Below, one piece after another: positions 3,890 to 27,448 of a stretch of DNA of 64,000 nt. The stretch is taken from NCBI RefSeq assembly GCF_039519235.1, contig NZ_CP154351.1, positions 744,001-808,000 on the forward strand, given 5' to 3'. The DNA is from Micrococcus sp. 2A (GTDB lineage: Bacteria; Actinomycetota; Actinomycetes; Actinomycetales; Micrococcaceae). The notes under the pieces are model-generated. The model was not told the DNA's origin and did not search any database. It worked only from the letters and a program-made list of their open reading frames with translations. The stretch's first letter is position 1, and every line of letters begins with the position of its first letter. A program made the position numbers and the translations under genes.

Positions 3890-6800
3890 CTAGAGGTCGG
3901 GGCCTTCAGGGCGATCCGGGCTGTGATGCTCGGCGCCGACGTCGACGGTGTGGTTGGCGGCGGGGGGAAGGTCGAGGACGCGCGCCAGGTGCAGCTGGTT
4001 GTCGGTCAGGGCGGCGATCCTGGCCTCGTCCTCTCCCGAGCCGGTGAGCGCGTCCAGGGCGCGCCGGTAGTGGTGCGCGGTGGCGTCGTTGGCCGTGGGG
4101 GGTCGGCCCAACACGCTGGCGGTGTGCTCGGTCTGGTTCGACACCGCCCGCCACAGCAGCACGGCGCGCAGGGTCGTCTCCGACTCGTCCCAGCCGGCCA
4201 TGTGCTCTGCCCACGCCGGAGGATCTGCCCGGATGGTCGCGGCCTGGTGCGTGAGCTCGGTGTGCAAGTGCTCGTGGACTTCCGCGACGGCGGCCGCGCG
4301 GGTGCCCTCCGCCGGGTCCTGGGCGGGCCGGTCCAGGGGTGAGGGCGGCAGGAGGCTCTGGCACTGGCCGATCACGTCCTGGGGGGTCTGCGCCTGGTCG
4401 AGTTCGCCGGAGAAGGTGCGGGCGGGGTCGGCCTTGACCATCCGGTTCCAGGTCTCGGCCGCGCGCATGGCGGCGTTCGTGGCGGGGTCGGGGAAGGCGC
4501 GGTCGATCCAGGCGCTGGTGCGCTCGGCGCGGGCGGCCCAGTCCAGGAACTCGTACTCGTGGACCAGCCGTCCCAGGTCGTTGGCCCAGGCCCGCTCGCC
4601 GGCCTGGACCTCGTGGGCGGAGCGTTCGGCGGTGGAGTGATCCAGCACGGCCTTCAGCGCGCCCACGGGGGTCTGGGCGCCGGGGGTGCGGTGCAGCAGT
4701 CCCCACTCGTCGGGGGAGGCGTGGTCGTCGGGCTCGAGGTCTACGTAGGCGTGGTTGGCCATGCGGCCTCGGGTCATGGCCACGTAGAACAGCTCGCGGG
4801 ACTGGCCGACCTCGACCACGGTGTGGCCGGTGTCCACGGTGACGCCCTGGGATCGGTGCGCGGTGGTGGCGTAGCCCAGCTCCGTGGAGGAGGCCAGGTA
4901 GTCCGGGTCCAGGATCACGGTGCCGCCGGTGGAGTCCACGATGGCCTCGGCCGAGCCGTCGGGGTTGATCCCGGTCAGGGTCAGGCGAGTGCCGTTGGCG
5001 ATGAACGCGCCGGTGGAGTCGCGCAACGAGCGGTCGTTGCGGCGGGCCAGCAGTTCGTCTCCGACGCCGGCGGCGACGTCGGCGCGCAGGGTGACGGTGG
5101 TCTCCACGTCCACCAGGCCAGCGGTCACCAGGTCGGCCTGGGCGCGGGCGTTCAGGTCGGCCACGGTCGCGTTGTCCGAGGCGATCAGGATCGTGGACAA
5201 GCCCTCACGCTTGTCGGCCAGCCAGGCGGCGTAGGCGGTGTCCGCGGCGTCGGTCTCGGGGTCTCCGTGCAGGCGCCCGGCCGCCTCGTACTGCTCCAGC
5301 ACGTCGTGGTCGCCCTCGCGCAGTTGCAGGGAGGCGCTGCGCTCCCACTCGTTGCGGAAGCGCCACACCTGATCCAGGCGTGCGACCTCCACGTCCTCGG
5401 CGCGGTCCATCCAGCCCAGGAAGCCGCCGGCCTCGACGGCCTCGAGCTGGGCAGGATCGCCCACGAGCAGCACCTTGGCCCCGGCGGTCTCGGCCTGCCG
5501 GGCCAGTTCGGCCATCTGGGCGGTGGCCACCATGGAGGCCTCGTCCACGATCAGCAGCTGTCCGGGGTGCAGGGTGAACCGGGCCTGGATCGCGTGCTGT
5601 TCGGCCAGGCGCGCGGTCATGGCCTCGATCTGCCGGGTCCGGGCGTCGGAGGCGGGGGAGTCCCAGAGCTGGGCCAGGCGGTCCTGGAGGCCGGCCACGC
5701 GTTGCGCGCGGGCGGCCGCGCCGTCCCCGACGGACTCCCACAGCCACTTGGCCGTGTTCTCCGTGGCCACGCCGAGCTCGTCGGCCAGCACGCCGGCGGC
5801 CACGGCCGAGGGAGCCAGCCCGACCACGGAGCCCTGGCCGTGCTGGGCGTGCCACAGCTGCGCGACGGCGGCCATGGTGGTGGTCTTGCCCGTGCCGGCC
5901 GGACCGATGATCGCGTCGATCCCGGACGGGGAGGCCAGGACATGGGCGGTGGCCGCCGCCTGGTCGGCCGAGAGGCGGTGGCCGTCCTTGGTGGTCACCT
6001 CGGCCACCTGTCCGGACAGGGTGTCCGGGTCGATGACCGGGGCGTCGGCGGAGCGGACACGGCCCATCAGGTAGGCCTCGTCCTCAATGACCTGCCTGGT
6101 GCTCCAGGTGCCGGCCACACGCTTGTGGTCCAGACCGGAGCGGCCAGCCGGGGCGGACAGCACGGGGTCGAACTCCGCTGGGGCGCTCATCCTGTCCGGG
6201 GTCAGGGACACGGCCTTGGCCAGGGCGGTGTCCACGAGCTCGTCGGCCGCGGCGTGCCGGTCCTCGGCGGTGTCGAACCGTACAAGGGCCAGCACGCGCT
6301 CGGCCGAGGCCAGCACGTTGGCCCGGGTGAAGGTGGTCCGGCGCACGGAGGCGTCGGTGAGCACCCACACGGCCATGGCCTCGCGGGCCTGGTCGGTGAG
6401 CTGGTCAGCGGTCACGGTGCGCCGGTCATGGCCGACGGCGGCGGCCACGATGACCGCCGGGTCGTGGCCACCGGCCAGCGCACGGTCACGCCAGCCGACC
6501 ATCTTCTCGGCCAGGGTTTCGGTGGACTCCTTCTTCGGTGTCCGGGTCTCCAGGGTGGCCTGCTGGCGCAGCTTGAGCACGACCGCCGCCGGGGCGGTGC
6601 GTCCGTGGGCGGCCTCCCACTGGGCGATGAGCTCGTCCTTGCGGGCCTGGATCAGTCGGGAGCGGGTGGAGAACTCCTCGATCAGACTGTCCGGCACGCC
6701 GGCCAGCTCCACGCGGTGGCCACCGTGGCCGGCCACGGTGGCCTGCTCGAGCTCCTGACCGGACAGCACCTGCTCCAGGGCGGCGGTGATGGCCGGGTCG

Positions 6801-15307: not shown

Positions 15308-16186
15308 TCATTCGGTCCGGACGTTCTGTGAGTCGTCGGTTTCCATTTGATGGGTGCACTGCCGAGCGTACTCGGCTGGGGTTAGGTAGCCGAGCGAGGA
15401 GTGCCGGCGGTGGTGGTTGTACTCGTCCTTCCAGTCGCCGATGATGACCTGTGCGTGCAGCAGTGAGTAGAAGCTGTTGATGTTGAGGCACTCGTCGCGG
15501 ATCCGGCTGTTGAACGACTCGACGTACCCGTTGCGCCACGGCGAGCCCGGAGGGATGTAGGACAGGCCGGTGCGGGTGCCGGCCCAGTCGGCCATCGCCT
15601 CGCTGATGAACTCCGGCCCGTTGTCCGACCTGAGCACCGCCGGGGCGCCCCGGGCGGCGACGAGGTCCTCGAGGTGGGCGGTGAGTCGGTCGGCGGTAAT
15701 CGAGCGCTCCACGAGGCCGCCGATGCACTCCCGGGTGTGTTCGTCGACGATCGAGCAGATCTTGATCGGTCGTCCGTGCTCGTCGGCGTCGAACTGGAAG
15801 TCCACCGCCCACACCACGTTCGGCGCGTCCGCCGTCGGCGCGTCGACGGTCGAGGACCCGACGCGCTTGCGTCGACGCCGCTGCGGGACCCGGAGCCCTT
15901 CGTCACGCCACAGGCGTTGGATCTTCTTGTGGTTCACCACCCACCCCTCGGCGCGGGCGTCGTGATACGCCCGCCGATACCCGTAGCGGGGATGGTCCTT
16001 CGCCCAGGCGCGCAGCCACTCCCTGAGCGCCCGATCCGGGTCCGCGACCGTGTCGCCCTTGAGCGGTCGCCGGTACGCGGAGCGGCTCAGCCCGACCAGA
16101 CGGCACGCCATCCGTTCGCTCACCCGCAACTTGCGCTTGAGGTGATCGACGGCGGCGCGGCGCCTGTCCGGGCTTAGAAGTTTCCC
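15308..16186 (-). CDS. IS3-family transposase OrfB (frameshift-translated part)
   Basis: The frame carries the complete DDE catalytic set: D in WAVDFQFD, D in LRSDNGPEF and E in GYVESFN, plus the HTH_21-like DHPRYGYRR segment. The frame is open back to the slippery heptamer at 16180-16186, and its N-terminal part (LLSPDRRRAAVDHLKRK) is the usual IS3 junction sequence. Translation most probably comes from a -1 shift out of orfA, giving an OrfAB fusion; a TTG at 16129 is the only internal start with typical spacing. Confidence 0.88.
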   Translation of the reverse strand, partial: GKLLSPDRRRAAVDHLKRKLRVSERMACRLVGLSRSAYRRPLKGDTVADPDRALREWLRAWAKDHPRYGYRRAYHDARAEGWVVNHKKIQRLWRDEGLRVPQRRRRKRVGSSTVDAPTADAPNVVWAVDFQFDADEHGRPIKICSIVDEHTRECIGGLVERSITADRLTAHLEDLVAARGAPAVLRSDNGPEFISEAMADWAGTRTGLSYIPPGSPWRNGYVESFNSRIRDECLNINSFYSLLHAQVIIGDWKDEYNHHRRHSSLGYLTPAEYARQCTHQMETDDSQNVRTE

Positions 16187-16814: not shown

Positions 16815-17256
16815 TGGGGGATTCTTCGTGCCTGGAGGATGACCGGGCCGAGCAAGTCGCCAAGCGTAAGCTCCAGCAGTTCTGCCACTTGTGCCAGCTC
16901 GGTGATAGAGAAGGGGGCCTTGACCCTTGATCGTGGACCCGGTGTCGGTTCGGTTATGCCGCTTCCGTGAGGGTAGCTGACCTCGCGGCGTCGTAGGCGT
17001 TCTCGTAGCTATTTGGGCTCACCTGGCCGATCGTGGAGTGGCGTCGGCGGGTGTTGTAGCGGTTCGCCCATCGGAACACGGCCCGGTAGGCCGTGGCCTG
17101 ATCTGGAAATGCGGCCCGGCCCTCGAGAAGCTCCCGCTTGAGCGCGGCGTTGAAACTCTCCGCGAGTGAGTTGTCGGCACTCGTGCCCACCGCACCCATG
17201 GACTGGACGACGGTGAGCTGCTCGCAGAGGGCCGCGTAGGCCTTCGAGGCGTAGAC

Positions 17257-18761
17257 GGCGGGTTCAACCGGTCGTTGCAACACCGTGCGTTGAGAGCGAG
17301 CGTAGCTGCTCGGCGAAGACCTCCGCGGGAGTCTTCCAGTCCAGGACCTTCCTGGGCCTGTTGTTCAGCGTGTACGCGACTGCTGCGAGGTCCTCGGCCG
17401 ACCATCTCGACAGGTCCGTGCCCTTGGGGAAGTACTGCCGCAGCACCCCGTTCGTGTTCTCGTTCGTCGGCCGCTGCCACGGCGAGTGGGGGTCAGCGAA
17501 GAACACCTTCGTGCCCGTGGCCATCGTGAACTGGACATGCCCGGCCAGCTCCTTGCCCCGATCCCACGTCAAGCTCTGACGCAGCTGCTCCGGCACCGTC
17601 GCCATCGCCTTGATCAGGGCCGCGGTCATCGCCTCAGCCCCGTACCCACCCAGCGACGGCCCGTTCTTCACCGGCGGCCGCTCTCCCCATCCCTGCAGGC
17701 GGGGCAAGTGGACCAGGATCGTGGCCCGGCTCTTGCGCTCGGCCAGAGTCCCGATCGCTGAACGCTCGGTCCCGATGATCAGGTCCCCTTCCCAGTGCCC
17801 GGGCACAGCACGATCAGCGGCCTCGGGTGGGCGCTTGCTGAACACCACGTCCTCGGTGACGTGGCCCTGGGGCTTGTTCCGGGTACGTGCCCGCGGCTCG
17901 CGCAGAGCCCGCCCGGTACGCAGGCACGCGACGAGCTCACGCTTGAGCGCCCCACGCCCCTGGATGAACAGCGACTGATAGATCGCTTCATGAGAGATCC
18001 GCATGGACTCATCATCCGGGAACTCCAGGCGCAGCCGGCGGCTGATCTGCTCAGGGCTCCACGCCGTAGACCACCGCCGGTCCGCCCGGCGCGGTTTCAT
18101 CTTCCGCCCCTTGAAACCGGGCCCGACTGGTCCCGGCACGGCCACGCCATCGGGGCCCAGGACCACCCCGTTCAGGCGTGCCTGGACGTAGTCGTGCAGT
18201 CGCTGGTTCGTGGCCAGCTTCGCCGGCTTGGGCCGCCTGGCAGCTTCCTGGGCCTTCCACTGCGCCACCGTGGCCCGGTACTCCTGCTTCCCGGAACGAG
18301 TGGCGCAGTTACGGCGCAGCTCACGGCTGATCGTGCCGGGATCACGTCCCAGCGTGCGTGCGATCTGACGGACCCCCTGGCCCTGGGCATGGAGGATTGC
18401 GATCTCTTCACGCTCAGCGAAGGACAGGTACCGGCCGGTGGGCTCGGCCAGGGACAGCGGGGTCATCCCGCCAGCGTGACGGAACCAGCGCGCCCCGACG
18501 GGCCAGGACACGCCCACAGTCAGGGATGCCTCGACCGTCGTAACGCCGGTGGCGATCACACGCCAGAACTGGCGTTGCACCTCTCGTGAGGGCTGCGGCC
18601 TGCCAGGAGAGCGCATCGGGGCCCGCAAGGCCCGATCCGCTCTCCACTGTCGACGTGTCCCCTCGGGCACGTCACTGATCTTCCTCGCCCAGTCCTTGCT
18701 TGCCATCGCCCATACCTCCAGTGATTCCGAGAGGGTGTTGCGACGACCGATTGAATCCACC
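17257..18761 (-). mobile_element. IS30-family element, copy A (1505 bp)
   Basis: 28-bp imperfect terminal inverted repeats (24 of 28 match; GGTGGATTCAA... and GGCGGGTTCAA...) with a 3-bp target duplication GAC at 17254-17256 and 18762-18764. It has the same length as the second copy at 25481 in opposite orientation, and every reading frame, sense and antisense, is the same, so the two are identical or nearly so. Confidence 0.93.
17264..18706 (-). CDS. IS30-family transposase, copy A
   Basis: 480 residues from the ATG preceded by GGAGGT. N-terminal DNA-binding region with a second HTH of the IS30 type (LSFAEREEIAILHAQGQGVRQIARTLGRDPGTISRELRRN), then the DDE integrase core: D in HWEGDLIIG, D in TWDRGKEL and E in PTNENTNGVLRQYF. 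The stop codon lies inside the terminal inverted repeat. The product is intact and identical to copy B. Confidence 0.95.
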   Translation of the reverse strand: MASKDWARKISDVPEGTRRQWRADRALRAPMRSPGRPQPSREVQRQFWRVIATGVTTVEASLTVGVSWPVGARWFRHAGGMTPLSLAEPTGRYLSFAEREEIAILHAQGQGVRQIARTLGRDPGTISRELRRNCATRSGKQEYRATVAQWKAQEAARRPKPAKLATNQRLHDYVQARLNGVVLGPDGVAVPGPVGPGFKGRKMKPRRADRRWSTAWSPEQISRRLRLEFPDDESMRISHEAIYQSLFIQGRGALKRELVACLRTGRALREPRARTRNKPQGHVTEDVVFSKRPPEAADRAVPGHWEGDLIIGTERSAIGTLAERKSRATILVHLPRLQGWGERPPVKNGPSLGGYGAEAMTAALIKAMATVPEQLRQSLTWDRGKELAGHVQFTMATGTKVFFADPHSPWQRPTNENTNGVLRQYFPKGTDLSRWSAEDLAAVAYTLNNRPRKVLDWKTPAEVFAEQLRSLSTHGVATTG

Positions 18762-19381
18762 GACGCTGCCGTGGTCGCTGTGAAACACGGCGCCGGCGAG
18801 ACTGCCGCGGTCGCGGGCCGCGGCGCGGAGTGCGTCCTCGACGAGTTCGGTGCGCATGTGGTCGGCGACCTGCCAGCCCGCGAGCTTGCGGGAGCCGAGG
18901 TCGATGCACGTCGCGAGATACAGGTTCGACCCGTCTGCGATCGGGAGGTAGGTGATATCGCCGACGTACCGGCGGTTCGGCTCCCCGATCGAGAAGTCCC
19001 GGCCGATCAGGTCGGGGAACTTCCTCCCGGACTGGTCCGGGATCGTGGTCTTCACCCGGCGTCGCAGCCGGATCCCCACCAGCTGGTGCTCACGCATCAC
19101 GCGGGCGACGCGCTTGTGATTCACCCGCTCGGCGGCGGTGGTGACGCCGTCGTTGAGGTCGGCGGTGATCCGGGGTGCCCCGTAGGCGCGGTCGCCGCCC
19201 TGGGCGGGGTCCTGCAGCACCCTGATCCGTGCGGCGAGGGCTGTATCTTCGGCCGCTCTCGCCGCCCGTCCCGGAGCCGCCGCGAGCCAGGCGTAGAACG
19301 ACGACCTCGCGATCTCGACGATCTCGCACAACCGCTTCACGCCGTAGGCGTCCTTGTGGTCCTCGACGAACTGGAAGCGGT

Positions 19382-19711
19382 TCACCAGTTCGTCTCCCCG
19401 GCGAAATACTTCGCCGCCTGACGGAGGATGTCCCGCTCCGTCTCGAGCTTCAGCTTCTCCGCCTTCGACGCCGCCAGTTCCGCCTCCAGCCGCACGATCC
19501 TCGCCGCCTGCGACTCCGACCGCCCCGACGTGGGCGGCGACATGGTGCCGGCGGTCGTCGTGCCCGAGCCGTGCTTCTCGACCCACTCCCGCAGCGCACC
19601 GCGGGAGATCCCGAGGTCCGCCGCGATGCCATTCAACGTCGCACCGGGCGTCGACTCGTACAAGTCCACCGCCCGCTGCCGGAACTCGTCCGTGTAGTTC
19701 TTCCTAGCCAT
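19382..19711 (-). CDS. IS3-family OrfA
   Basis: 109 residues beginning MARKNYTDEFRQRAVDLYE, an HTH followed by a coiled coil (RIVRLEAELAASKAEKLKLETERDILRQAAKYF). Its stop overlaps the GTG of the disrupted orfB (GTGA). It is intact, but without a functional orfB the element cannot move on its own. Confidence 0.9.
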   Translation of the reverse strand: MARKNYTDEFRQRAVDLYESTPGATLNGIAADLGISRGALREWVEKHGSGTTTAGTMSPPTSGRSESQAARIVRLEAELAASKAEKLKLETERDILRQAAKYFAGETNW

Positions 19712-19772
19712 CCCTCGGATTCTCGCTTCCCCATCATCGTGTTGGAATCAGCGTGTCCAAGATCAGGGGTCA

Positions 19773-20442
19773 AGCGCCCCGAGATGCTCGTTCGGTCATC
19801 GCCTCGCTCGGGCGCCTCGACGAGGCGACCACCCGGATCGCCGCGGCGTGCACCGGCGTGTTCGCCGTCGCCGAGACCGGACGGATGCATCATCGGCGGG
19901 CGACGACCAGCTGGTTCCTGGGGCCGGAGTTCCTGAAGCGCTATCCGACCGTCGCCCTCGATCTCGACACCATGGTCGTGGTCGACGGGAACCTCGTCAC
20001 CGCCGGCGCTGCGTTCGCCCACATCGACCTCGCGCTCTCACTCGTGCGATCGATCAGCCCCGACCTGGCCCAACATGTCGCCAAGCTCCTCATCATCGAC
20101 GAGCGTCCGTCGCAGGCGGCCTTCGTCGCCTACGAACATCTCCGGCACGAGGACCCGATCGTCGTCGAGTTCGAACGCTTCGTGCGCGCCCGCCTGGACG
20201 AACCGTTCAACGTCGCCTTCGTCGCGCAGTCGCTCGGCACCAGCCGGCGCACCCTCGAACGACGAGTCCGTGCGGCGCTCAACCTCACTCCGCTCGGGTT
20301 CGTCCAACGGCTTCGCACCGAACGAGCTCGGCACCTCTCAGCAACCACGGATCTCACCTCCGCCGAGATCGCGCTACGGGTCGGCTACGCGAACGCCGAG
20401 ACTCTGCGCTCCCTCCTGCGCAGGGAGCGACGCCGTTCCTGA
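19773..20442 (+). pseudogene. GlxA/AraC-family regulator, 5' end lost at an IS3 end
   Basis: The frame continues into the IS end, but homology begins at about DARSVIASLGRLDEATTRIAAACTG, the second half of the DJ-1/PfpI-like sensing domain of GlxA-type regulators ([24 protein letters not shown]). The C terminus keeps a complete double HTH AraC domain (NVAFVAQSLGTSRRTLERR and DLTSAEIALRVGYANAETL). Some 80-100 N-terminal residues are missing. A GTG inside the IS end could start a shortened protein with intact DNA-binding domain. Confidence 0.8.
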
Positions 20443-21031
20443 CCTATCGCCATGCCTGTAGCCGGTGTCCTAGTGCTCGACTGGAACCACCTCTCAGCAC
20501 GTCGCGTCGACGCTACTGCGTCGCCCCTGGACGACCCACTCGACACGCCCGCAGCACAGGCCATGTGACGTGCCCCGGCTTCCCGGACGGCCGGGGTCGG
20601 GTGGCTGTGATGTGTCGCTGCGTTCTCGTCGAGGGGGTCAGCAGACTCGATCAGGGTCGATTGGGATGAGACGCGAAGGCGCTCAGGTCAAGGCGGCCGA
20701 AGCCGGCCGGCGGGGTAGCGTCGGTCACGTCGAGGTCTTTCGGATGGATGGCGTAGGAACCTCCATCGTCGGGAGACCTCGATGTCTACCTGCGGACCGA
20801 CGCGCCCGGCCGACCTACACCCTCATCTGGGAAGAGCCCATAAACGGTCGTTTGTGGCGGGCGTCCGGGATGCGACGGGGCTGTGGCTTCGTTCGCTTGG
20901 TGGCGGGGTTTTTGCAGCGCTCCGTGGCGGTCTTGTTGCCGCGATCACGCAGGACTGGCTGCAGGTAGGTGTCGCGGTCTGAACCGAGAGGGGTGCGCCC
21001 GGTCGGGGCCGTTTGGATCGCTGCCGCTACG
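20443..21031. other. gene-free stretch of 589 bp
   Basis: Several short open frames cross it, none with family resemblance or a good start. It contains an 18-bp inverted repeat CATAAACG-GT-CGTTTGTG (7 of 8 pairs) at 20839-20856, a type of site seen as recombinase or operator sequence, and an oddly lower-GC patch around it. Probably the remains of an earlier insertion beside the cadmium genes. Confidence 0.4.
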
Positions 21032-21634
21032 TCAGAGTCCGAAGGCCCCGCCGCTGACGAGAATCACGATGCCGAGGCCGATGAGAACGATGGGGAAGAG
21101 GACGTGCTCCCAGCGTTCGAGCACTTCGGCGATCGGGGGGCGGGTGGCGACGAACTTTGCCAGGGCCACCAGGACCGCGACGAGCGCGAGGAAGACGATG
21201 CAGTAGGCGACTACTGCGAGAGGTTCCACGCTGAGGAAGACAGGGGTGTAGACGCCGATGTTGTCGCCGCCGTTGGCAAGGGTGACGCCTGCGACTGTCC
21301 ACACGCCGACCTTCTTGCCGGCAACCTTGGCCTCGTCGTCATCCTCGTCATCGTCTCCGCGCCAGGCCTGCCATGCGGCCCAGAGGCCGAGGCCCAGAGG
21401 GATGAGACCGAAGTACGGGATGGCTGCCGAGGGCAGGAATGCTCCGGCGCCGATGGTCACCAGGACCGCGGCACCGAGGATGCCGGCGAATCCGAGGTAC
21501 TGGCCGGCCAGAATGCGGGCGGTAGTGCCGCGCTGGCCTGCCCCTCGCGCGAAGAAGAGGGAGAGCACGATGATGTCGTCGATGTTGGTCGCTGCGAACA
21601 GGCCCATCGCCTGCAAGACCGAGGTGAGGATCAT
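21032..21634 (-). CDS. cadD: cadmium resistance transporter CadD family
   Basis: 200 residues and five to six membrane helices, starting MILTSVLQAMGLFAATNIDDIIVL; the early conserved acidic pair in NIDD and the later NGGDNIGVYTP motif are characteristic of CadD/LysE-superfamily cadmium exporters. A short Asp/Glu-rich cytoplasmic loop (DDDEDDDE, about 94-101) lies in the middle. GGGAGG precedes the ATG, which overlaps the cmtR stop (ATGA), so the pump and its sensor are translated together. Confidence 0.9.
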   Translation of the reverse strand: MILTSVLQAMGLFAATNIDDIIVLSLFFARGAGQRGTTARILAGQYLGFAGILGAAVLVTIGAGAFLPSAAIPYFGLIPLGLGLWAAWQAWRGDDDEDDDEAKVAGKKVGVWTVAGVTLANGGDNIGVYTPVFLSVEPLAVVAYCIVFLALVAVLVALAKFVATRPPIAEVLERWEHVLFPIVLIGLGIVILVSGGAFGL

Positions 21635-21990
21635 GCGCCCTCCCCAGCTGCGTCGCATCCGGGAAGCGAGCAGGCGGGATCGATGCACGGGGCGTCTTCG
21701 TCCACTGCCAGGGTGGCATCGACCAGTGCCGTCAGCGCCTGCGCCAGGTGCGAATCGGCGATCTCATATCGTGTCCGACGACCCTCAGGCTCGGAGACGA
21801 CGATCCCGCAATCGCGCAGGCATGCCAGGTGGTTGGACACGTTCGGGCGTGTCAGGTCCAGATCTCGGGCCAGTTCCGCCGGGTAAGCGGGATGGTCGAG
21901 CAGGGTCAAGATGATCCGGGATCGAGTGGGGTCGGCCAGTGCACGACCCAGGCGGTTCATCACGTCGAGACGCGAAGCGATAGTCAGCAT
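21631..21990 (-). CDS. cmtR: Cd(II)/Pb(II)-responsive ArsR-family repressor CmtR
   Basis: 119 residues, winged-helix ArsR/SmtB fold with recognition helix LTRPNVSNHLACLRDCG. The metal ligands known for Mycobacterium tuberculosis CmtR, C57, C61 and C102, occur here at exactly the same residue numbers. The start MLTIASRLDV is chosen because it aligns with that protein and lies seven bases after a -10 box, giving a leaderless transcript. It heads the cmtR-cadD operon and should release its own promoter when cadmium or lead binds. Confidence 0.93.
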   Translation of the reverse strand: MLTIASRLDVMNRLGRALADPTRSRIILTLLDHPAYPAELARDLDLTRPNVSNHLACLRDCGIVVSEPEGRRTRYEIADSHLAQALTALVDATLAVDEDAPCIDPACSLPGCDAAGEGA

Positions 21991-21992
21991 GG

Positions 21993-22018
21993 ACTGAACT
22001 ATACAGCGCGAACTGAAC
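21993..22018 (-). promoter_or_regulatory. cmtR-cadD promoter and candidate CmtR operator
   Basis: On the minus strand the -10 box TATAGT (22003-21998) lies 7 bases before the cmtR ATG. GTTCAGT occurs twice, at 22018-22012 and 21999-21993, overlapping the -10 region; the pair is a candidate CmtR binding site. Confidence 0.65.
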
Positions 22019-22189
22019 ACTCGGTCACAGGCGTCAGCCCAGATCGCATGCCCGTAAGGGGATCCTTCACCGTACGTCGAGCGAGCTCAGTCCTCGACGA
22101 CTTCTTGTGAGGGATCGTCATGTACGCATGTGAACAGCTTCGCTCTGTGTCGTCCTTCTGGCTTCGCTTCGTGTCGGGTAGCCCGGTCG

Positions 22190-22585
22190 CTACGGCTGCA
22201 GGAGCTCTCGTTCGATGCGTTCTGCGATGGCGTCCCGCATTGGTCGCACGTCTTCCGGTGACCAGGAGTTGGGGTCGGGGAACGACCACTCCAGGACCGT
22301 GCCGCCAGGTTCTGCGGGGAGTTCGAGTCCGGGCTTCATGAGGACGACGATGTCCGCGTGTTCGAGCAGGTCGGGCGTCACGCGCCGCGGCATGCGTGCG
22401 GTGATGTCGAGGCCGAGTTCGCCTACGGTCGCGGCGATCGAGGGGTTCACCTCGTCGGCCGGGGTGATGCCGGCGGAGGTGGCCGTGTATCGGTCGGGTG
22501 CGGCGAGTTCGAGGAGTGCTGCGCCGAGTTGTGAGCGGCCGGCGTTGTGCTTGCAGATGAACAGGACAGTGGGCTTCGTGGTCAT
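22190..22585 (-). CDS. arsC: arsenate reductase, low-molecular-weight phosphatase type
   Basis: 131 residues. The P-loop C11-KHNAG-R17-S follows the first strand, and the general acid region FPDPNSW is near residue 104. This is the thiol-dependent ArsC class that reduces arsenate to arsenite for export. The ATG just before TKPTVLFICKH was chosen; the frame extends 30 bp without support. It lies downstream of the truncated flavoprotein gene. No arsR or arsenite exporter remains here, so resistance would need exporters elsewhere. Confidence 0.9.
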   Translation of the reverse strand: MTTKPTVLFICKHNAGRSQLGAALLELAAPDRYTATSAGITPADEVNPSIAATVGELGLDITARMPRRVTPDLLEHADIVVLMKPGLELPAEPGGTVLEWSFPDPNSWSPEDVRPMRDAIAERIERELLQP

Positions 22586-22599
22586 GGATGCAAGTCCGG

Positions 22600-23084
22600 T
22601 CAGTTGGTGCAGCACGAGGTGTTGCCGGTAGCCGAATCAAGCGGAGTGCAGCAGGCAGCGTCCTCAGCGGCAGGAGTGGCGGTGGCGGGCGGGGTGGTGC
22701 AGCAGGAGCTGCCGCCGATGTCGGTGGAGCAGACACCCGTTTCGGGGAGGACGAGTTCGAGCTGTCGGGCTGCGGTGTGGTCGCCGGCGAGTTCGGCGGC
22801 GATGGAGCGGACCTGCTCGTAGCCGGTGAGGAGCAGGAACGTGGGCGCGCGGCCGTAGGACTTCATGCCGGCGATGAAGAAGTTCGGCTCCGGGTGCGCC
22901 AACTCGGCGACACCGTGCGGGGGAACGGAGCCGCAGGAGTGCAGGTTCGGGTCGATCAGTGGTGCGAGGGCTCGGGGTGCTTCGACGATGTCGTCGAGGC
23001 CGAGGCGGATCTCGCGGAGCATGTCGAGGTCGGGCCGGAATCCGGTGGCGTTCACGATGACGTCGACAGTGAAGCGTCCAGTTG
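22600..23084 (-). pseudogene. ArsO-like FAD/NAD(P)H monooxygenase, C-terminal part only
   Basis: The remaining ~160 residues show the C-terminal ATG motif of flavin-containing monooxygenases (VIVNATGFRPDLDML) and the following NFFIAGMKSYGRAPTFLLLTGYEQVRSI, which matches ArsO-like proteins of arsenic operons. The N-terminal FAD- and NADPH-binding part is lost at the IS256 end, and the open frame continues into the IS. The last 45 residues form a Thr/Ala-rich tail with three Cys-Cys pairs plus single cysteines, possibly a metal or arsenite binding tail. Confidence 0.75.
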
Positions 23085-24488
23085 AGTCCCTGATAGTGGT
23101 GTAACCCTCCCCGGCCGCCAACACCGTCCCCAGCATGGACGCGGTCACCGTGGGAGCCTTCGAGTGAACCTTCCACAGCACTCTCGAAAGGGACATCACC
23201 ACGATGACCGCTCCTCACATTGTCGACCCTGAAGGCCTGCTACGCGAAGCGATCGGCGAAGCCTCGCCGGACTTGTTGCGCCACCTGCTGCAGACCGTGA
23301 TCAACGCCCTGCTCAGCGCTGACGCAGACGCGGTCTGCGGCGCCGAGTACGGCACCGCTTCTGATACCCGCACCGCACAGCGCAACGGGTACCGCCACCG
23401 GCCCCTCGACACCCGCGCCGGCACGATCGACGTGGCCATCCCGAAACTGCGCGCCGGCACGTACTTCCCAGAGTGGCTGCTCGAGCGACGCAAGCGGGCC
23501 GAGTCCGCGTTGATCACGGTCGTCGCCGACTGCTACCTCGCTGGGGTCTCCACCCGACGCATGGACAAGCTCGTGCGCCAGCTGGGCATCGACTCGCTCT
23601 CGAAGTCCCAGGTCAGCCGGATGGCCGCCGAGCTGGACGAGCACATCGACGCGTTCCGGCACCGCCCGCTGGGGGATGCCGGCCCGTTCGTGTTCCTCGC
23701 CGCGGACGCCCTGACCATGAAGGTTCGCGAGGGTGGTCGGGTGATCAACGCGGTGGCCATGGTCGCCACCGGCGTCAACGCTGACGGGCGACGTGAGGTA
23801 CTCGGGCTGCGGGTGGCCACCACGGAGTCAGGCGCGGCGTGGAACGAGTTCTTCGCTGATCTGGTCGCCCGCGGCCTTCACGGGGTGAGACTGGTGACTT
23901 CGGACTCCCACCGTGGCCTGGTCGAAGCCATCGCGGCGAGCCTGCCCGGGGCCGTGTGGCAGCGGTGCCGCACGCACTATGCCGCGAACCTGATGGCGGT
24001 GACCCCGAAGGCCATGTGGCCGGCGGTGAAGGCCATGCTCCACAGCGTCTACGACCAGCCTGACGGGCCGGCGGTGCACGCCCAGTTCGACCGGCTCTTG
24101 GACTACGTGGCCGAGCGGTTGCCCGCCGTGGCTGGGCACCTCGATGCTGCTCGGGAGGACATCCTCGCGATCATCTCGTTCCCGAAGGACGTGTGGTCCC
24201 AGATCTGGTCGAACAACCCTGCCGAGCGCCTGAATCGGGAGATCCGGCGCCGCACGGACGCGGTGGGCATCTTCCCGAACCGGGATGCCGTGGTGCGGCT
24301 CGTGGGGGCCGTGTTGGCTGAGCAGACGGATGAGTGGGCCGAGGGCCGCCGGTACCTCGGTCTCGAGCTGCTGGCCCGCTGCCGCGAGCCCCTCACGCAA
24401 GAACCGGGCACCGTGATGGGCACGGAGGTGATGCCGGCCCTGGCCTGATTCTCATGCCTCGAAGACGGTTACACCACTTCCAGGGACT
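23085..24488 (+). mobile_element. IS256-family insertion sequence
   Basis: Both ends carry AGTCCCTG..AGTGGTGTAACC as inverted repeats (23085-23106 and the complement at 24467-24488). About 1.4 kb with one transposase gene. The repeat similarity may extend a few bases further outward on both sides. No 8-9 bp duplication is visible. To the right it directly touches the next IS3-family element. Confidence 0.8.
23204..24448 (+). CDS. IS256-family transposase
   Basis: 414 residues with the mutator-type core: D in ADALTMKV, D in VTSDSHRGL, the C/H block WQRCRTHYAANL and E in SNNPAERLNREI. The N-terminal region QRNGYRHRPLDTRAGTIDVAIPKLR is typical. GAAAGGGA precedes the ATG. It is full length and apparently functional. 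Confidence 0.95.
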   Translation: MTAPHIVDPEGLLREAIGEASPDLLRHLLQTVINALLSADADAVCGAEYGTASDTRTAQRNGYRHRPLDTRAGTIDVAIPKLRAGTYFPEWLLERRKRAESALITVVADCYLAGVSTRRMDKLVRQLGIDSLSKSQVSRMAAELDEHIDAFRHRPLGDAGPFVFLAADALTMKVREGGRVINAVAMVATGVNADGRREVLGLRVATTESGAAWNEFFADLVARGLHGVRLVTSDSHRGLVEAIAASLPGAVWQRCRTHYAANLMAVTPKAMWPAVKAMLHSVYDQPDGPAVHAQFDRLLDYVAERLPAVAGHLDAAREDILAIISFPKDVWSQIWSNNPAERLNREIRRRTDAVGIFPNRDAVVRLVGAVLAEQTDEWAEGRRYLGLELLARCREPLTQEPGTVMGTEVMPALA

Positions 24489-24545
24489 TGACCAAGCGTC
24501 CCGGGTGTGATGCCGCTTCCTTTCGAGTTCGAGAGGATGTTGTTC

Positions 24546-24857
24546 ATGCCGAAGAAGTTCGATCCCGAGGTGAAGGACCGCGCGGTGCGGATGGTCCTGG
24601 ACCGTGTCGAGGAAGCCGGGTCAGTCACGAAGGCCGTGGCTTTGGTGTCGCCGAAGGTCGACGTGGGGCGCGAGACCTTGCGCCGCTGGGTCTGTCAGCA
24701 CCGCGTCGACGCCGGCCTCAAGGACGGGCCGACCAGCGATGACCTGGCCGAGCTCAAGCGCCTGCGCGGCGAGGTCAAGCGATTGCGGGAGGACAACGAG
24801 ATCCTGCGCAAGGCCTCGATTTTCTTCGCGGGGGAGCTCGACCCCCGCAACCGATGA
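24546..24857 (+). CDS. IS3-family OrfA
   Basis: 103 residues starting MPKKFDPEVKDRAVRMVLD, an HTH domain followed by a coil (LRGEVKRLREDNEILRKASIFF). The stop overlaps the orfB ATG (ATGA). An upstream in-frame ATG and GTG exist; MPKKF fits the family length. Confidence 0.9.
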   Translation: MPKKFDPEVKDRAVRMVLDRVEEAGSVTKAVALVSPKVDVGRETLRRWVCQHRVDAGLKDGPTSDDLAELKRLRGEVKRLREDNEILRKASIFFAGELDPRNR

Positions 24858-25480
24858 TCATGGGATTCATCGATCAGATGCGCGCCAAGGGGCATGCGGT
24901 CGAGTCGATCTGCAGGGTGCTCCGTCAGGAGGGCTGTCAGATCGCCGCACGCACCTACCGGGCGTGGCGCCGCCGCAGCGCGTCGGCTCGTGACACGTCC
25001 GACGCGGTCCTGCTCAACGTCCTGCACGACCTTGTCGGCACCCCGGAAGGGCTGTACGGGCGTCGGAAGATGACCGCGTGGCTGCGTCGAGAAGGTCACC
25101 AGGTCGGCGCCGGTCGTGTGGACCGGCTCATGCGGGTTGCGGGGATGAACGGTGTGCGTCGAGGCAGGCCAGTGCGCACCACCGTCCCGGCCAAGGACGG
25201 CTGCCGTGCCGGTGACCTGCTCAATCGAGACTTCACCGCGGCCGCGCCGAACACGAAGTGGGTCGCGGACTTCACCTATGTGCGCACGTGGGCGGGCTTC
25301 GTATACGTCGCGTTCGTGCTGGACTGCTACTCGCAGAGAATCCTCGCCTGGCATGCCGCGACGGCCAAGACGACCCCGCTGGTCCTGACCCCGCTGCGGA
25401 TCGCGTTGTGGGACCGTGACCGGCACGGGCACCCTGTGCAGCCCGGCGAGCTGATCGCGCACAGCGATGCCGGGTCGCAG

Positions 25481-26985
25481 GGTGGATTCAATCGGTCGTC
25501 GCAACACCCTCTCGGAATCACTGGAGGTATGGGCGATGGCAAGCAAGGACTGGGCGAGGAAGATCAGTGACGTGCCCGAGGGGACACGTCGACAGTGGAG
25601 AGCGGATCGGGCCTTGCGGGCCCCGATGCGCTCTCCTGGCAGGCCGCAGCCCTCACGAGAGGTGCAACGCCAGTTCTGGCGTGTGATCGCCACCGGCGTT
25701 ACGACGGTCGAGGCATCCCTGACTGTGGGCGTGTCCTGGCCCGTCGGGGCGCGCTGGTTCCGTCACGCTGGCGGGATGACCCCGCTGTCCCTGGCCGAGC
25801 CCACCGGCCGGTACCTGTCCTTCGCTGAGCGTGAAGAGATCGCAATCCTCCATGCCCAGGGCCAGGGGGTCCGTCAGATCGCACGCACGCTGGGACGTGA
25901 TCCCGGCACGATCAGCCGTGAGCTGCGCCGTAACTGCGCCACTCGTTCCGGGAAGCAGGAGTACCGGGCCACGGTGGCGCAGTGGAAGGCCCAGGAAGCT
26001 GCCAGGCGGCCCAAGCCGGCGAAGCTGGCCACGAACCAGCGACTGCACGACTACGTCCAGGCACGCCTGAACGGGGTGGTCCTGGGCCCCGATGGCGTGG
26101 CCGTGCCGGGACCAGTCGGGCCCGGTTTCAAGGGGCGGAAGATGAAACCGCGCCGGGCGGACCGGCGGTGGTCTACGGCGTGGAGCCCTGAGCAGATCAG
26201 CCGCCGGCTGCGCCTGGAGTTCCCGGATGATGAGTCCATGCGGATCTCTCATGAAGCGATCTATCAGTCGCTGTTCATCCAGGGGCGTGGGGCGCTCAAG
26301 CGTGAGCTCGTCGCGTGCCTGCGTACCGGGCGGGCTCTGCGCGAGCCGCGGGCACGTACCCGGAACAAGCCCCAGGGCCACGTCACCGAGGACGTGGTGT
26401 TCAGCAAGCGCCCACCCGAGGCCGCTGATCGTGCTGTGCCCGGGCACTGGGAAGGGGACCTGATCATCGGGACCGAGCGTTCAGCGATCGGGACTCTGGC
26501 CGAGCGCAAGAGCCGGGCCACGATCCTGGTCCACTTGCCCCGCCTGCAGGGATGGGGAGAGCGGCCGCCGGTGAAGAACGGGCCGTCGCTGGGTGGGTAC
26601 GGGGCTGAGGCGATGACCGCGGCCCTGATCAAGGCGATGGCGACGGTGCCGGAGCAGCTGCGTCAGAGCTTGACGTGGGATCGGGGCAAGGAGCTGGCCG
26701 GGCATGTCCAGTTCACGATGGCCACGGGCACGAAGGTGTTCTTCGCTGACCCCCACTCGCCGTGGCAGCGGCCGACGAACGAGAACACGAACGGGGTGCT
26801 GCGGCAGTACTTCCCCAAGGGCACGGACCTGTCGAGATGGTCGGCCGAGGACCTCGCAGCAGTCGCGTACACGCTGAACAACAGGCCCAGGAAGGTCCTG
26901 GACTGGAAGACTCCCGCGGAGGTCTTCGCCGAGCAGCTACGCTCGCTCTCAACGCACGGTGTTGCAACGACCGGTTGAACCCGCC
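25481..26985 (+). mobile_element. IS30-family element, copy B (1505 bp)
   Basis: Same length and terminal repeats as copy A, in opposite orientation, flanked by the 3-bp duplication CAG (25478-25480 and 26986-26988). The two transposases point outward from the metal-resistance block. Confidence 0.93.
25536..26978 (+). CDS. IS30-family transposase, copy B
   Basis: Identical in sequence to the copy A product (480 residues), with the same GGAGGT site before ATG and the same stop within the right inverted repeat. All DDE residues are present. Having two intact copies, the strain has an active-looking source for further IS30 transposition. Confidence 0.95.
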   Translation: MASKDWARKISDVPEGTRRQWRADRALRAPMRSPGRPQPSREVQRQFWRVIATGVTTVEASLTVGVSWPVGARWFRHAGGMTPLSLAEPTGRYLSFAEREEIAILHAQGQGVRQIARTLGRDPGTISRELRRNCATRSGKQEYRATVAQWKAQEAARRPKPAKLATNQRLHDYVQARLNGVVLGPDGVAVPGPVGPGFKGRKMKPRRADRRWSTAWSPEQISRRLRLEFPDDESMRISHEAIYQSLFIQGRGALKRELVACLRTGRALREPRARTRNKPQGHVTEDVVFSKRPPEAADRAVPGHWEGDLIIGTERSAIGTLAERKSRATILVHLPRLQGWGERPPVKNGPSLGGYGAEAMTAALIKAMATVPEQLRQSLTWDRGKELAGHVQFTMATGTKVFFADPHSPWQRPTNENTNGVLRQYFPKGTDLSRWSAEDLAAVAYTLNNRPRKVLDWKTPAEVFAEQLRSLSTHGVATTG

Positions 26986-27448
26986 CAGTACACGAGCCTT
27001 CGCTTCGCCGAGCACCTGGCCGCCGAGGGCATCGCCGCGTCCATCGGGACCGTCGCCGATGCGTATGACAACGCGCTCATGGAATGCGTCATCGGCTTGT
27101 ACAAGACCGAGTGCATCACCACCACGATCTTCCACAACGGCCCGTACAAGACCATCGCCGACGTCGAGTACGCCACCGCCGGATGGGTCGAGTGGTACAA
27201 CAATCGAAGGCTCCACTCGTCCCTGGCTATGACCACCCCGGCCCAGTACGAGACTGCCTACTACGCCGCCCTCAACCGAGAGCTGGCACCCACATAGGAG
27301 CGGTACGAAACCCGGGACGCTTCAGTTCCGCGATGACGGTGTCCGCGCCGCTCACCGGAGACCTGGCAGTACCGCGGACCGCCGACCTGGAGTGGTCTGC
27401 ACGCCCGGTGCGCCGCGCAACCGGCACGAGCACGGAGGAGCTCCACGC

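Follow-up and report, generated by a model that had tools for sequence, protein, structure and literature searches.

How do two identical copies of an insertion sequence (IS) come to sit at the same codon of two different transposase genes? The question is raised by a stretch of 64,000 nt from Micrococcus sp. 2A (GCF_039519235.1; NZ_CP154351.1, positions 744,001–808,000 of the forward strand; hereafter the window, whose positions serve as coordinates), in which copies A and B of an IS30-family element interrupt two orfB genes of the IS3 family (Table 1). Sequence comparison makes it highly probable that the element belongs to an IS30 clade that left near-palindromic targets for one long and asymmetric sequence of IS3 orfB, at the codons of the second catalytic aspartate.

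Two insertions at one codon of IS3 orfB

The two copies are 1505 bp each, 100% identical and inverted relative to each other. Their imperfect terminal repeats (24 of 28 bases match) and exact 3-bp duplication agree with the IS30 family (repeats of ~25–28 bp, duplications of 2–3 bp), as does the copy B transposase, which matches NF033563 with 241 bits for a cut-off of 80. When the junctions are read in frame, the host of copy A gives ...FHSDHGSV on the left and (V)YASKAYA on the right, and the host of copy B ...AHSDAGSQ and (Q)YTSLRFA, so that the duplicated triplet is, at both copies, the codon between GS and Y (HSDHGSV/Y and HSDAGSQ/Y, the slash marking the insertion point). This reading bears out the observation, made in an earlier note on this DNA, that identical IS30 copies lie at the same codon of two distinct IS3 transposases and duplicate precisely that codon. 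Both hosts match the IS3 model NF033516 above its cut-off of 160 although they are cut, with the break at profile position 285 or 286 of 369. They are indeed clearly different proteins, with 33% identity over the compared pieces, and since both the host proteins and the duplications differ, the two insertions are separate events; descent from one ancestral insertion by recombination, which the note had named as an outcome that would defeat it, therefore does not apply.

The rest of the genome repeats the pattern. Six DNA matches to the element turned up in the whole genome. Two are copies A and B in full, two are fragments of this element, and the remaining two (L005/L006) are pieces that belong to a different IS30 lineage. 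Each of the fragments adjoins the same codon (HHSDKGVQ/ in L003 and /QYVSLAYS in L004), as do therefore four of the four traces of the element in this genome. Among nine orfB front halves retrieved with one query (a count that excludes more distant IS3 genes, e.g., that at 15311–16129), three end in the element, five keep a free site, and the last one (L234, G000:C1:2436115-2436699, minus strand) has a small deletion that falls precisely on the target codon, which may be an excision scar or result from mere decay.

The same codon in most insertions of an IS30 clade

Relatives were chosen for their similarity either to the element or to its transposase, whatever their flanks. The sample comprised 80 loci (the best 80 of 491 stretches), plus 40 chosen places and 11 of 60 listed plasmid matches (443 records matched). 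A transposase match was found in 220 loci, of which 24 were dropped (partial genes, unclear ends), and the remaining 196 gave 164 distinct flank pairs, identical 20 + 20 bases being counted once. Element ends were placed by script from terminal repeats and duplication (wrongly in a few loci, i.e., L063, L202 and some distant IS30s), and profiles of IS3 OrfA and OrfB, for which the window and the loci supplied the sequences, were run against the flanks. In the flank-pair counts, clade members are elements at least 52% identical to that of the window.

The clade accounts for 126 distinct insertions. OrfB profile position 194, with a tolerance of 2 positions, takes 97 of these (81 of them seen from both sides), and the other 29 lie elsewhere; when the count is restricted to insertions with an exact 3-bp duplication, the proportion is 79 of 99. 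None of the 38 distinct flank pairs of IS30s outside the clade, screened for IS3 genes alone, falls at this position. In a FastTree tree of 168 transposases, all 93 rows with an IS3 OrfB target (the label of L063 having been set by hand) fall into a single clade, which has 131 members and a local support of 99. The insertions of the relatives thus exclude a chance sharing of the site by the two window copies. They carry the target preference proposed in the earlier note far beyond what two copies show, while the outcome that would have spoken against it, most other copies lying in unrelated targets, was not observed. The clade extends from Micrococcus, Streptomyces and many other Actinomycetota to Pseudomonadota, where the same IS3 arrangement occurs on Hydrogenophaga, Roseomonas, Cupriavidus and Aminobacter plasmids. 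A search of viral contigs returned one distant relative.

Such a distribution could also arise if one ancient IS3 carrying IS30 had spread as a unit, with few independent insertions behind it. Genome G044 displays what this would look like, since three of its loci (L115, L143 and L144) hold one IS3 with the same IS30 in different surroundings, and identity stops exactly at the IS3 ends (1063 bp to the left and 339–342 bp to the right, TGAAGCG...CGCTTCA). One of these composites is flanked by a 3-bp duplication AAG and the other two by none, and no empty copy of this IS3 was found in the genome, three of three being occupied. It is plausible either that the composite moved as a unit or that every IS3 copy was hit; both fit homing, and the first adds hitchhiking. 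As a general account, spread from one composite is refuted and we regard it as extremely unlikely, although it may add copies locally. Indeed, the 66 comparable hosts share a median pairwise identity of 40% and, when grouped at 60% identity, form 14 groups, and the 73 distinct two-sided sites with a duplication display nine different duplicated codons (CAG 36 times, CAA 26, GTC 5 and six others once each) and both orientations (65 co-directional with orfB, 8 opposite). Moreover, a single genome can contain transposases that do not differ in any compared column and yet sit in different IS3 hosts, as is the case for copies A and B and for L115, L145 and L146. An independent model, NF033516, matches all 65 front halves tested, i.e., those of the 73 sites with a usable open stretch (E <= 1e-5), and when these are aligned, no column is invariant except the H, D and G that belong to the target motif.

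Insertion orientation is nearly fixed in the closer clade members and free in the deeper ones, as elements at least 74% identical to that of the window comprise 69 co-directional insertions and 1 opposite, against 16 and 11 for those at 52–74%. End symmetry is higher in opposite insertions (22.8 vs. 20.7 of 26, p = 0.0035 with kinship ignored; p = 0.18 within the 52–74% range), and its link with orientation is weak.

The target DNA and the protein that may read it

The strongest positions of a matrix built from the 73 sites include CA at −21/−20, GA at −15/−14, GG at −9/−8, the duplication CAR and T at +1. The clade insertions that miss IS3 are instructive here. Nineteen of them, with clean duplications and outside recognisable IS3 genes, were scored against their own flanks on both strands, each site being taken in the better of its two orientations, and 14 rank within the best 16 of 3898–5712 positions. 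CA at −21/−20, T at −18, GA at −15/−14, G at −8, CAG and T at +1 are enriched at these off-target sites, as are the letters at +4, +5, +8, +17 and +18 (uncorrected p < 0.01 per position), while G at −9, A at +2, T at −26 and T at +16, which are conserved in IS3 sites, show no enrichment among the 19. A weak IS3-like trace was found beside two of the 19 (L128, E = 0.38; L181, E = 2.2). Judging from these letters, the stretch of DNA that is read seems to cover ~30 bp: it apparently starts ~21 bp ahead of the insertion point, takes in the D-box and ends ~8 bp past that point, perhaps with the addition of +17/+18. The earlier note placed the target in the conserved DNA behind the D-box, which is nearly right: the region after the D-box does seem to take part, and the stretch apparently read begins ~21 bp before the insertion and spans the box. 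As a separate observation, four clade members from four genera (L067, L070, L077 and L078) share one non-IS3 site with near-identical short flanks, which would point either to a mobile context that they have in common or to this being a second site that they favour.

These off-target sites bear on two other explanations. One is that the elements insert widely and survive only where they have hit a harmless IS3 gene; such genes are dispensable, and insertions in them would persist. Selection of this kind would permit any place in IS3, yet no resolved clade insertion lies elsewhere in IS3 orfA or orfB (E <= 0.001), except for L063 and L202, both with misplaced ends (a separate placement puts L063 at the codon, and the right side of L202 is at the codon). 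Since most of the non-IS3 sites resemble the target DNA as well, survivor bias is barely conceivable. The other is that the site is found through an RNA guide or through recruitment to the IS3 transposase protein, and not by the IS30 transposase reading DNA. A target of this length and asymmetry is unusual among DDE elements, the insertion falls at a coding motif, and the right flank piece of copy B, one of four, shares 12 bases with the element, a length reached by 1 of 300 shuffled pieces. The two flank pieces of copy A and the remaining one of copy B share no more with the element than shuffled ones, and no Rfam match was found up to E = 1 around copy B (25300–27200), whether to a group II intron or to another structured RNA. 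As the off-target sites share the DNA letters without the protein, they argue for sequence-specific recognition of ~30 bp and against recruitment by the IS3 protein. We consider a guide or recruitment unlikely.

IS30 has preferred sites, and its hot spots are described as near-palindromic or as its own ends (PMC9333248). The clade departs from the first of these, since of 20 possible dyad pairs the 73 IS3 sites show 5.8 and their shuffled versions 5.3. A palindromic target was accordingly rejected, these sites having no clear dyad symmetry. Nine IS30 loci outside the clade show 10–16 of 20 dyad pairs, in agreement with the near-palindromic hot spots. Among IS30s outside the clade, L207, L162, L173, L168 and L172 lie centrally in long palindromes, with 11–16 of 20 pairs. 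The second known habit, the targeting by IS30 of its own inverted repeats (same source), would favour recognition of the site through the end-binding domain because the site resembles the element ends. This is very unlikely, as terminal repeats and joined ends score no better than shuffled sequences against the target matrix (178, 96 and 234 of 300 shuffles being as high). Inside the element itself, the best match to the matrix falls outside its own D-box, with a score of 13 where IS3 sites reach at least 19.

The transposase itself is a variant inside the IS30 family by sequence match. It carries two inserts, located in copy B near residues 180–215 (I1, clade-specific) and 337–355 (I2). I1 has ~33 residues with a basic stretch between the helix-turn-helix region and the catalytic domain, and I2 has ~16 residues between the first two catalytic aspartates; both are present in the clade and absent from the 11 outside IS30s of the alignment. 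The interval holding I1 measures 54–56 in 129 of 129 clade members and, outside, 21–28 in 27 of 31 (36, 39, 53 and 53 in the other four). The index distance between the first two aspartates is 72–75 in 119 of 120 measured clade members and 58–60 in all 31 measured outside. The family spacing is stated as D-(54–61)-D-(33)-E in PMC2516522, and the clade differs in the first interval and keeps the second as usual. An N-terminal H-HTH motif is reported as needed by IS30 for target binding (cited in PMC1525189), and fused DNA-binding proteins can direct the IS30 transposase (cited in PMC8875745). We think that the N-terminal helix-turn-helix together with I1, and perhaps I2, reads the target site. 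No solved structure matches the transposase profile up to E = 0.1.

Several observations weigh against the proposed change of target. On the tree, the IS3 OrfB target label needs 33 changes, with off-target rows scattered inside the clade (shuffled labels need 54.8 on average and as few as 33 in 0 of 500 cases). Of the 99 clean clade insertions, 20 are not counted at the OrfB site (one of them, L074, reads HSDRGDE/F at a contig edge), and among the off-target sites L147 ranks 22 and L069, L088, L128 and L148 rank 147 or worse. The specificity of the clade for the OrfB site is thus not absolute. In addition, the clade sample consists of close relatives and was not randomly drawn, and on the tree there is a single coincidence of I1 and I2 with the new target, which makes their role a correlation. 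The AlphaFold model, with a mean pLDDT of 42.7, is of too low quality to reveal a reading domain, only its region of the two helix-turn-helices being passable.

With these reservations, the reading by the transposase of one asymmetric orfB sequence may be set out as follows. The transposase would read ~30 bp of about the form CAY-WSS-GAY-NNN-GGN-NNN-CAR/TWY, and the element inserts at the codon after GS and duplicates it. IS3 transposases conserve this stretch, and the elements that encode them are common, present in many copies and dispensable; a harmless landing site would thus be available in very different genomes. Judging by its place, the insertion should cut off the last ~100 OrfB residues, including the third catalytic residue, and the host IS3 copy would then be dead by itself. 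Its intact ends could still carry IS30 along when another IS3 copy supplies the transposase. A benefit from silencing IS3, as in the strategy evoked by the earlier note, we only infer.

A second lineage, the surrounding genes and known systems

A second IS30 lineage (seven tree rows, support 100; elements of 1234 bp, one of 1224 bp; ~43% identical to the window transposase) inserts in IS3 orfA. Eight of its ten distinct insertions (L005, L152, L153, L154, L159, L160, L226 and L241, but not L211 and L224) lie, in both orientations, at the conserved motif LRRANE-I-LK.ASAFF (ANE/IL), L005 fitting it by the left flank alone. The Micrococcus genome carries a copy of this lineage (L005/L209, G000:C1:2304630-2305817), and a class-wide search found it in one other genome (2 of 394). 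The two IS3-homing lineages are not neighbours on the tree, whose deep branches are long and partly weak, which implies either two origins of homing to IS3 or its loss between them. It is possible, and we offer it tentatively, that IS30 at least twice independently became an IS3 homing element (at the orfB codon and at ANE/IL of orfA), that I1 and I2 form an exchangeable target-reading module, and that IS3 serves as both harbour and in-trans vehicle, each insertion removing one active IS3 and limiting the IS3 load.

The inverted copies A and B flank metal-resistance genes at 21035–22615, i.e., CmtR (above cut-off) and CadD-like and arsenate-reductase-like genes (below cut-offs), and recombination between the copies would invert this block. 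Next to it, an IS256-family transposase (23204–24445, within 22603–24448) adjoins a short open frame without NCBIfam match (22603–23085), which we take to resemble the rear of a flavoprotein; by eye, the IS256 region abuts the left end of the IS3 hosting copy B.

Table 1. Features of the two interrupted IS3 genes and of the IS30 copies (window positions)
Feature	Position	Strand	Remark
Rear part of host orfB A, from VY	16954–17256	−	duplication included; Pfam rve_3, rve_2
Target duplication GTC, right side of copy A	17254–17256	−	+ strand reads GAC
IS30-family element, copy A	17257–18761	−	100% identity to copy B, terminal repeats, 3-bp duplication
IS30 transposase gene of copy A, 480 aa	17264–18706	−	ATG behind internal GGAGG, start picked by eye; identical to copy B
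Target duplication GTC, left side of copy A	18762–18764	−	+ strand reads GAC
Stretch holding front part of host orfB A, to HSDHGSV	18762–19586	−	true orfB start inside; NF033516 181 bits, profile 88–285; Pfam rve, HTH_21
Host orfA of A	19382–19711	−	open frame; seed of OrfA profile
Host orfA of B	24507–24857	+	open frame; seed of OrfA profile
Front part of host orfB B, to HSDAGSQ	24854–25480	+	NF033516 167 bits, profile 93–286
Target duplication CAG, left side of copy B	25478–25480	+	
IS30-family element, copy B	25481–26985	+	identity to copy A, terminal repeats, 3-bp duplication
IS30 transposase gene of copy B	25536–26978	+	start picked by eye; NF033563 match
Target duplication CAG, right side of copy B	26986–26988	+	
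Rear part of host orfB B	26986–27297	+	Pfam rve_3, rve_2 on 26959–27297

Elements that home into one place of another transposon have been described. IS4321/IS5075 (IS110/IS1111 group) insert in the ends of Tn21-like transposons, but they have a transposase of a different family, and their target is a terminal repeat where that of the clade consists of catalytic-motif codons. Tn7 inserts at attTn7 behind glmS and likewise recognises a safe place to land by reading conserved coding DNA; it relies on a separate target protein, TnsD, and inserts beside a host gene, whereas the clade inserts in the gene of a transposon. The group II intron RmInt1 also enters an IS, ISRm2011-2, and was proposed to limit its spread (PMC4238363), but it is a self-splicing intron and not a DDE transposon that ends the reading frame. 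Closer to our element, IS30 and IS1655 have in common with the clade the transposase family (NF033563), the type of ends and the short duplication; what sets the clade apart is its target, an asymmetric site within a coding motif of a different IS family, together with the two extra protein inserts. ISLxc3/ISLxx5 of Leifsonia xyli (IS30 family; transposase of 351 aa), for which PMC2516522 reports that no conserved target was found, are actinobacterial as well, ISLxc3 resembling our element in length (1511 bp) and in the type of its 3′ end (GGCGGATTCTAG). The available part of a large survey of IS neighbours (PMC9208149) contains nothing like IS30 homing into IS3, and no earlier report of it appeared in searches of the open-access PubMed Central literature, with ISfinder and most subscription papers outside the search. 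Altogether, the family, its chemistry and elements homing into transposons are known, and an IS30 clade reading the DNA of the IS3 catalytic motif, with a second lineage in orfA, was not found described in the literature searched.

Most DDE insertion sequences choose their targets loosely. Here, an element with a single gene appears to read ~30 bp of coding DNA and to land in the most conserved part of another transposon family, across very different bacteria, and the second lineage suggests that IS30 elements can evolve this behaviour repeatedly. The clade thereby offers a natural system in which a change in the target specificity of a DDE transposase can be placed on a tree and tied to two small protein inserts. 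It is also relevant to the ways in which mobile elements keep each other in check and to the reasons why split IS3 genes are a frequent find.

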